Below, piece after piece: positions 57,016-59,668 of a DNA stretch of 64,000 nt. Both the position numbers and the translations under genes were made by a program. Source of the DNA: an uncultured bacterium. GTDB taxonomy: Bacteria > Cyanobacteriota > Vampirovibrionia > Gastranaerophilales > Gastranaerophilaceae. The DNA is taken from positions 62,001 through 126,000 of the forward strand of contig CACWLL010000004.1 in NCBI GenBank assembly GCA_902761735.1, read 5' to 3'. The notes under the pieces are model-generated. The model saw only the letters and a program-made list of their open reading frames with translations, was not told the DNA's origin and did no database searches. The stretch's first letter is position 1. Each line of letters opens with the position of its first letter.

Positions 57016-57825
57016 TTATTGTTCTATAAGTATGCACTTTTCAACATTATAAAACATTTTGGCAGCTTCAATAAACTTATCCGGAGCTGTACTTACATAA
57101 AATATTTCAGAGCCTTTTTCTTTGTTTTCTGATAAACATTGATTTTTTGCAAAATCTTTTTTTATGTAATCTGCGTAGTAGTCTGCGGGGTTAATTATAT
57201 TTTCAGGTGAAAGATATTTTGAAATATATTTAATTAGGTAAGGATAATGAGTGCAGCCTAATACTATTTTCTGAGGGTTAAATTTTAGTATTTCTTGCAT
57301 TTTTTCTTTGACTGATTGTTTTGCCTCTTCTGAATTTACCTTATTACTTTCTACTATTTTTACCCATTTTGGACAAGATATTTCTATTACATTTATTTTG
57401 GAATTATATTTATTTATATTGTTTTTATAAGCATGCGAATTGATTGTTGCAGGTGTTGCAAATACGCCTATTGTATTGACATCCGATTCTGAAATTATTT
57501 TAGAAACAGATTGTATTAGCGGATACAATTTAAAATTGTATTTATCTTTCAAATCTTCATATACCGTTGCGGAAGTTGTATTACAGGCCATTACTACAGC
57601 TTTTACCCCTTTTGTTTCAAAGAATCTGAAAGCATTGTTTGAGTATTCAATTAACTGCTCTTTTGTTTTTTCGCCGTAAGGCATATTTTTTGTATCTCCA
57701 AAAAATATTATATTTTCATTTGGCAAAACTTTTTTGAAGGCTGATAATATTGTTAATCCGCCGACACCGGAATCAAAAAAACCTACCGGAGCATTATTGC
57801 TTTTATTTTGTATACTTGAAATAAT
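57016..57825 (-). CDS. murI: Glutamate racemase, apparent ATT start
   Basis: Makes D-glutamate for peptidoglycan. 269 residues if started at ATT 57825. Conserved N-terminus NNAPVGFFDSGVGGLTILSA (catalytic Asp region), first catalytic Cys in VMACNTTSATV, second in VLGCTHYPYLI. The frame is open upstream only to a stop at 57831-57829 and has no ATG, GTG or TTG before FFDSGVGG; the first such codon (TTG 57726) would delete the active-site Asp. GGAGGG at 57839-57834 is eight bases before ATT, ideal for initiation. It overlaps amiC by 23 bases. Confidence 0.9.
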   Translation of the reverse strand: MISSIQNKSNNAPVGFFDSGVGGLTILSAFKKVLPNENIIFFGDTKNMPYGEKTKEQLIEYSNNAFRFFETKGVKAVVMACNTTSATVYEDLKDKYNFKLYPLIQSVSKIISESDVNTIGVFATPATINSHAYKNNINKYNSKINVIEISCPKWVKIVESNKVNSEEAKQSVKEKMQEILKFNPQKIVLGCTHYPYLIKYISKYLSPENIINPADYYADYIKKDFAKNQCLSENKEKGSEIFYVSTAPDKFIEAAKMFYNVEKCILIEQ

Positions 57826-59668
57826 TGTTTATACCCTCCACTATTGCTTTTGCCGTAGCCTGCTTTCTGGCTGTGGTTACAATTTGACCACGTTCTGCGG
57901 TATTAGAAATAAAGCCTGTTTCTATTAAAATTGCAGGAGCTGTTGTGTGATTAATTACATAAAATTTTGATTTAAAAGTTCCTCTGTCATTTGCTTTTAT
58001 TGAGCTTGCAAGAGAAGAATGTACCGATTGTGCAAGCGGAATACTTTCAGAATGATAATAATGTGTTTCTATTCCGTTTGGTGCTTCATTTGTACTTGAA
58101 TTTACGTGTATACTTACAAAAATGTCGGGAGCGTACGCTTCGGAATAAGCAACCCTATCCTGCAAAGAAACATAAGTGTCGTCACTACGAGTCATTAGAA
58201 CACCGTAACCTTGCTTTTTTAACATTTTTTCTACCATTTTTGCAATTTCGAGTGTTATATTTTTTTCATAAATACCCTTTCTTGTGGCTCCAACATCTGA
58301 ACCTCCATGTCCGGCATCTATAACAACTTTATATTTTCCGTCTGTTCCTTTGGGCATATTAGCCGGCAGATTTTTTTCAGGGGAAGCCGGAGTTAAGATT
58401 TCTGTTATTGTGTCTTTTATAATTTCCCTTGGTTCTTTTATTTGAATTTTGAGAGATTTTCCATCAGCCCCTAAAAATGTTGTTACCAGAGTATCATGTT
58501 CTATTGGTATTGATAGTCTTAAGCCTCTTGAAGCTTTTGATAATTTTGCTTTATTAAAAGCTGTTCCTGAGAATATTTTAGTAAAATCTTCCGAATTAAA
58601 TTCATCTGTATTCAATAGGTAGGCAATAATTTCCGAATTAGTTCTGTCAAAGCCATGAACAAGAGGTTTGTCAAAATTTAAAGTCATTGCGGAAGACAAA
58701 TTATCAATTTTTGTGTGAAGAAAACTTGTTATTGTTGTTGTTCCTCCGGATATTGTAAGTTTTCCCAGATTATCACTATTAGTTAAAACAACGGTTTGGT
58801 TATCTCTTGAATATACCGGAATATACTTTGTTACATATGGTGTGGTTATGACAATACGTGCCTTATTTACTGAAAATTGTCCTATTCGCATTGTATCAGT
58901 CAGTCCTAAGTTATATTCCTTATTCCTGATAGCTCTGTTTACCATTGTGTTTGGAAAATCAAACACAATTCTTGTAGGGTTTGAAAGAATCATGGGTTTT
59001 TCAATAGCGGCAGAGCCAATACCTCCTATCGTTACCATATCGGTACCGGCAGTGACTCTGTCTATATAATATTTTGTATTAAGTCTTAATTCTTGCGAAT
59101 AATTTAGGTTTGTATGGTTGTTAAATGCCTGATCTATTCGGGCAATTGTTTCGCTCGGATTTGCGTTTGTTGATACCGTCATATATTCGTAAAAATCGTT
59201 AGAAGAAGAATGGTCATCTCTATATATATTTTGCATGAAAGGATTTTGGATCCCGTTATTTTTGGTTTTTATAAAGATTCCGTTCTTTAGTTGTAAAAAT
59301 TTCAGATTACCGGTGTCGTAGTTGTCGTCGTGATATAATACGACTCGGACTATATCGGGTGCAGTAGAGAATTGAGAAATTTTAATTTCTTTAATTCCTT
59401 CGGAGCTGAATATCCAATCCTTTTTTGTACCTGAGAGTATTGCTTTTGGAATATCAAAATATGTTCTTGTCGGGTTTGATAATTTTACAAGTTTTATATC
59501 GCTTATTTCGGGTAAATCAGTTATATTTGCTGAAGTTAAGGCGATTATTCCTCCCGAGATATCAAAATTCGCAGAGGTTATCTTGAAGCTGTTTTCTGCT
59601 TTCGAGGGTTGTACGTATCCAAACAGCATAAAAATTAATGTTATTAGTATTAAAATATATTTTTTCAT
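57803..59668 (-). CDS. amiC: N-acetylmuramoyl-L-alanine amidase with AMIN-type N-terminal region
   Basis: Secreted zinc amidase that removes peptide stems from peptidoglycan. 621 residues. Signal peptide YILILITLIFMLFGYV ending near PSKAEN. Residues 30-400 hold repeated beta-rich AMIN-like units (LSNPTRTYFDIP; LSNPTRIVFDFPNTM) that bind the wall. The C-terminal Amidase_3 domain has IDAGHGGSDVGAT (first zinc His), IFVSIHVNSS (second His) and ILIETGFISN (catalytic Glu). FtsEX, also here, commonly controls such amidases. murI overlaps its end. Confidence 0.94.
   Translation of the reverse strand: MKKYILILITLIFMLFGYVQPSKAENSFKITSANFDISGGIIALTSANITDLPEISDIKLVKLSNPTRTYFDIPKAILSGTKKDWIFSSEGIKEIKISQFSTAPDIVRVVLYHDDNYDTGNLKFLQLKNGIFIKTKNNGIQNPFMQNIYRDDHSSSNDFYEYMTVSTNANPSETIARIDQAFNNHTNLNYSQELRLNTKYYIDRVTAGTDMVTIGGIGSAAIEKPMILSNPTRIVFDFPNTMVNRAIRNKEYNLGLTDTMRIGQFSVNKARIVITTPYVTKYIPVYSRDNQTVVLTNSDNLGKLTISGGTTTITSFLHTKIDNLSSAMTLNFDKPLVHGFDRTNSEIIAYLLNTDEFNSEDFTKIFSGTAFNKAKLSKASRGLRLSIPIEHDTLVTTFLGADGKSLKIQIKEPREIIKDTITEILTPASPEKNLPANMPKGTDGKYKVVIDAGHGGSDVGATRKGIYEKNITLEIAKMVEKMLKKQGYGVLMTRSDDTYVSLQDRVAYSEAYAPDIFVSIHVNSSTNEAPNGIETHYYHSESIPLAQSVHSSLASSIKANDRGTFKSKFYVINHTTAPAILIETGFISNTAERGQIVTTARKQATAKAIVEGINNYFKYTK

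Follow-up and report, generated by a model that had tools for sequence, protein, structure and literature searches.

The murI frame and its missing start codon

Where does translation begin in a gene whose reading frame offers no ATG, GTG, or TTG ahead of the catalytic core? The question is raised by murI, which lies on the minus strand of the 64,000-nucleotide stretch of DNA analyzed here (the window), at 57016 to 57825, and has 269 codons plus a stop if read from an ATT at 57825. Its product is the glutamate racemase MurI. The frame scores 197 bits against TIGR00067, well past the family cut-off of 147, with the match running from residue 15 of the stop-to-stop open reading frame (ORF), and PDB glutamate racemases align from residue 11, just before P-V-G-F-F-D-S-G. 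In the alignment to these solved enzymes, FDSG, ACNT, and GCTHYP, which we take to be the catalytic motifs, are all present. This genome, which is 99.98% complete, has a single murI, and no second copy was found in it. As a separate observation, three genomes of genus g9 (G051, G065, and G085; 98 to 99% complete) gave no glutamate racemase match by protein or by TIGR00067, and a fourth genome of that genus has murI; loss of murI together with another source of D-glutamate is possible in these three.

An earlier note on this DNA had claimed that no canonical murI start exists between an upstream stop and the core motif, and its coordinates proved correct on the minus strand. An in-frame TAA at 57829 to 57831 bars any upstream start, which rules out a canonical one there, and from this stop to FFDSGVGG (57757 to 57780, minus strand) the frame holds no ATG, GTG, or TTG. 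It reads ACA ATT ATT TCA AGT ATA CAA AAT AAA AGC AAT AAT GCT CCG GTA GGT TTT TTT GAT TCC. The first canonical codon is TTG 57726, 18 codons 3' of the start of FFDSGVGG, and translation from it would lose the motif and its catalytic Asp-Ser.

The start region lies within the end of an amiC-like gene (57803 to 59668, minus strand), an ORF whose product has a signal peptide-like N terminus, an AMIN domain (PF11741, 50 bits), and a C-terminal Amidase_3 domain (PF01520, 183 bits), and ends in ...AIVEGINNYFKYTK. Its stop codon, TAA, occupies 57803 to 57805 on the minus strand, so that the two coding regions would overlap by 23 nt (57803 to 57825) if murI starts at 57825. A Shine-Dalgarno (SD) sequence, GGAGGG, is found at 57834 to 57839 inside the amiC codons GTG GAG GGT (Val-Glu-Gly). 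Its end is separated from the first ATT by eight bases, as the note had also pointed out, a distance suited to initiation at an AUN codon. The duplex of this SD with the presumed anti-SD was estimated at -9.8 kcal/mol; the 16S gene is missing from the assembly. Two ATT codons follow on the minus strand: ATT1 (57823 to 57825), the likeliest start, and ATT2 (57820 to 57822), a candidate alternative that relatives whose SD sits 4 nt further 3' would use. The linker that separates the amiC stop from the conserved MurI core occupies 57781 to 57802 on the same strand.

Promoter-like matches between amiC and murI were no more numerous than in shuffled sequences. On the minus strand at 57785 to 57865, the SD GGAG could pair with a CUCC in murI codons (-11.2 kcal/mol). 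A hairpin of this kind was rejected, as its z-score of -0.76 is not significant and no better than that of shuffled sequence, and the CUCC side is missing in some relatives.

Distribution of the arrangement among relatives

We gathered 159 distinct amiC-murI junctions, 91 of which make up the relevant clade of the gut-dwelling Gastranaerophilales; among named relatives, 'Cyanobacteria bacterium UBA2855' and Candidatus Gastranaerophilales metagenome-assembled genomes (MAGs) are the nearest. Nearly half of the clade junctions (44/91) have no canonical start at or 3' of the SD. In about 35 of these 44, no canonical start at all follows the last in-frame stop; the others offer only a TTG that lies at the SD or upstream of it. 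ATT1 or ATT2 is retained behind the SD in all 44, and none of the relatives compared carries ATG at exactly the ATT1 codon. Almost all murI genes of outgroups, at the level of genus, family, or class, have an ordinary ATG, mostly 3 to 13 codons before FFDSG, with a few exceptions showing GTG or TTG starts or longer distances, and outgroups with ATG show all three amiC-murI frame relations (14/13/8). The MurI tree places the start-less arrangement at the node that unites the 91 rows of the clade (support 93), which is consistent with a single origin of the putative AUU arrangement at that point.

It is also important to ask whether murI is exceptional within its genome. We surveyed the ORFs of about 234 orthologous pairs against a congener and judged only murI to be conserved in a protein-like manner above its first canonical start with no explanation that fits better, a rough and noisy figure that covers stretches of two genomes, may include antisense shadow ORFs, and relied partly on discounting such shadows and conserved untranslated regions by eye. 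The single exception in the survey was a frameshift-like pair of amidase and LysM-lysozyme ORFs.

In that pair (L209, G000:C11, minus strand around 5670; L268, G002:C21), an Amidase_3-like ORF ends ...GQKVATP at CCC TGA. Past this point, an ORF with LysM and lysozyme-like regions and no canonical start for 60 to 152 codons runs in the +1 frame. A congener with 77% identity retains the CCC TGA. Other congeners carry the homologous amidase/LysM region in long open frames (529 to 938 aa), compatible with an in-frame fusion. These features suggest a programmed +1 frameshift in this pair.

Comparative evidence for initiation at ATT

Several lines of comparative evidence point to the ATT codons as the murI start. 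One is the constraint on the SD within amiC, where synonymous choice is strongly skewed. In loci encoding E-G-I, Glu is GAG in 25/26 cases against a usage of 14%, and in loci encoding x-G-V, Gly is GGA in 43/43 against 33%. After thinning to <75% MurI identity, these biases gave p = 3e-16 and 3e-8, respectively, and after thinning to <65%, p = 2e-7 and 1e-3. The SD and putative start are both kept inside the amiC coding region across the phase-locked junctions.

The register of the SD also co-varies with the ATT that is retained (Fisher p = 0.003). Among no-canonical loci with GAGGG at -3, the register seen here, ATT1 is kept in 18/18 and ATT2 was lost 5 times; among those with GGAG at 0, ATT2 is kept in 23/24 and ATT1 was lost 8 times, with one locus of this 3' register keeping only ATT1. 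Neither ATT is present in 14/39 clade junctions that have a canonical start, compared with 0/44 of those that lack one (Fisher p = 6e-6, on raw counts). ATT retention by itself is weak evidence, because Asn and Tyr codon usage would leave both ATTs absent in only 4.3 of the 44 loci. More generally, raw p-values are too strong, since the relatives are phylogenetically linked, and when independent pairs were tested on the tree, too few of them were informative for significance to be reached.

The frame itself provides bounds. Numbering codon positions from the amiC Gly codon, so that ATT1 is position 10 and ATT2 position 13, we found in-frame stops at position 4, the codon of the TAA at 57829 to 57831, in 15/80 phase-locked loci and at position 7 in 4/80, and none in the 80 from position 10 onward, which places the putative start no earlier than position 10. 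Across the 80 loci that have no downstream ATG, the tree shows 34 changes of linker length, all of them multiples of three, and a single amiC-murI frame relation is seen in 80/80; every clade member with an altered frame relation has its own downstream ATG. As the linker changes only in threes, it is probably translated in the murI frame from a start upstream of it. Between ATT and the amiC stop, moreover, NTA or NTG codons that would put a stop into the murI frame were seen at none of 15 sites, compared with 8.5 expected, the missing ones being the Leu and Ile codons TTA and ATA before A. This result is supportive and not decisive, because thinning shrinks the 15 sites to 1 to 6 lineages.

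Taken together, the SD codon constraint, register co-variation, frame lock, and stop bounds strongly support the earlier proposal of AUU initiation, and from them we infer that murI is very likely translated from AUU in this Gastranaerophilales clade.

Alternative explanations

Other accounts of the missing start codon were weighed against these data. A single MAG could carry a sequencing or assembly error that conceals an ATG, GTG, or TTG, and restoration of an ATG in this way had been named as something that would overturn the AUU reading. Many independent assemblies, with 44 distinct junctions between them, show the same pattern, which excludes such an error for practical purposes. It is somewhat easier to imagine, if still very hard to credit, that translation begins downstream, either at TTG 57726 or at a near-cognate codon two codons before FFDSG, where most relatives have ATA. 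That codon is GTA here and ATT, ATC, or GTT in others, with no SD before it; the linker would then be free of frame, yet it is in frame in 80/80, and a start at TTG 57726 would delete the catalytic FFDSGVGG. Only marginally better placed, and likewise very improbable, is a programmed +1 frameshift near the end of amiC, yielding an AmiC-MurI fusion that needs no start codon. murI always lies in the +1 frame of amiC, and shifting of this type seems to operate at the other amidase gene of the same genome, at the CCC TGA described above. However, the end of amiC shows no conserved shift site, with 14 different last-codon/stop pairs, the murI frame is free of stops from ATT to the amiC stop, which shifting at the stop would not require, and the SD is retained through rare codons. 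In such a fusion, moreover, an enzyme of the cytoplasm would be attached to an amidase destined for export.

A more substantial alternative concerns the reason for conservation. It is conceivable, although we consider it unlikely, that the AUU start was selected as a regulatory throttle, in which the level of IF3 would govern murI translation and so tie D-glutamate supply to the translation machinery. IF3 is a repressor of non-canonical initiation in both E. coli and Streptomyces (PMC5472188), AUU and AUA starts in S. aureus give ~10% of AUG output (PMC13009471), and infC of the genus is itself apparently AUA-started, so that an IF3 loop probably exists. Against this, canonical starts were regained in several lineages, by an upstream ATG, a downstream TTG, a separate ATG, or possibly an ATG at the SD position, and the overlap with AmiC Tyr-Phe accounts for the failure of ATT to revert. 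The earlier interpretation is strongly supported as regards AUU initiation and less secure as regards a throttle, since lineages inside the clade have replaced ATT.

Probable entrenchment by the amiC overlap and routes of escape

A physical tie between murI and amiC is plain, because amiC contains both the SD and the putative start codon. ATT1 and ATT2 share their third bases with AmiC codons, in which they come first, a Tyr codon at ATT1 and a Phe codon at ATT2. Tyr is found in 80/80 loci and Phe in 74/80 (Leu in 4, Tyr in 2). An xTG at either position is barred, because the AmiC codon would then start with G and Tyr or Phe would be lost. The persistence of ATT can thus be explained without a regulatory role or selection for weak initiation.

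The escapes follow the same logic. An ATG one codon upstream is confined to loci in which the AmiC residue just before is Asp, Gly, or Ala, and a TTG two codons downstream to loci with one of these three residues following Phe, a pattern that the genetic code itself dictates. Other lineages acquired their own ATG 3' of the amiC stop and, for the most part, also left the fixed frame relation. One further group combines a weak SD with an ATG at position -2, in the SD position. Six cases there have lost both ATTs, and this ATG may serve as the start. In one member of this group (L044), the 196 nt from the amiC stop to the MurI core are in frame and open throughout. Because clade lineages have replaced ATT with ATG or TTG, AUU itself is dispensable.

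We consider it highly probable that murI is translated by SD-directed initiation from AUU at 57825, possibly 57822, that this arrangement arose once at the base of the clade, whose outgroups have ordinary ATG starts, and that it persists through the overlap, in which xTG at the SD-spaced codons would replace the invariant AmiC Tyr, or Phe. Ribosomes would load on murI within amiC, because the strong GGAGG sits in the last amiC codons, either directly or by re-initiation after finishing amiC 20 nt downstream. Low murI output and IF3 sensitivity would be likely consequences of AUU and not necessarily the reason for its conservation.

Relation to known non-canonical starts

In the genus, infC has an apparent ATA start behind a conserved GGAGAT (loci L219-L229; G000:C1:191652), and the only canonical codons near its core are without an SD. 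IF3-sensitive non-canonical initiation is therefore likely available in the genus, and IF3 sensitivity of murI is plausible on this analysis. In E. coli, IF3 overproduction also lowers re-initiation (PMC2268962).

Among known systems, infC (AUU in E. coli, AUC in Streptomyces, AUA in S. aureus) resembles murI as an essential housekeeping gene with a strong SD, no canonical start, and an AUN start conserved over a wide group. It differs in encoding the factor that polices its own start, which murI does not, and the putative murI start lies inside an upstream gene. E. coli pcnB, compared here by description, is similar in that AUU is the sole start of a chromosomal gene, and its AUU start reportedly results in low expression; it is a single-group example without an overlap constraint. 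The staphylococcal genes ccpN (AUA) and cvfC1 (AUU) likewise combine a conserved non-canonical start with an extended conserved SD, and were mapped by Ribo-Ret and proven with reporters (PMC13009471), whereas the murI start is proposed from sequence comparison; they are not known to have an overlap lock like the one proposed for murI. The GTC start of Streptomyces sigR is also conserved behind a strong SD, but it is GTC and not ATT, and IF3 repression has been shown experimentally for sigR (PMC5472188). murI belongs with infC, pcnB, ccpN, and cvfC1, and its evolutionary record is unusually deep and legible. In the open-licence literature, we found no paper on non-canonical starts in Gastranaerophilales or for murI.

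Implications

To our knowledge, established AUU-start genes in bacteria are few. Predictors limited to ATG, GTG, and TTG miss such genes and would call murI without its catalytic N terminus. The junction set amounts to a natural experiment in start-codon evolution, with one apparent origin, many ATT retainers, and several escapes, and allows a test of whether regulation preserves a weak start or an overlapping gene has simply locked it in place. A broader and more speculative proposal, which we hold only tentatively, is that a clade-wide AUU start of an essential cell-wall gene, trapped by the overlap, is IF3-sensitive and amiC-coupled, so that the stringency of the ribosome for start codons would set the D-glutamate supply, with exits restricted. 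If this is true, lineages could leave the arrangement only by changing the AmiC neighbor residues, from Asn to Asp, Gly, or Ala or from Lys to Asp, Gly, or Ala, or by acquiring a separate downstream murI ATG.
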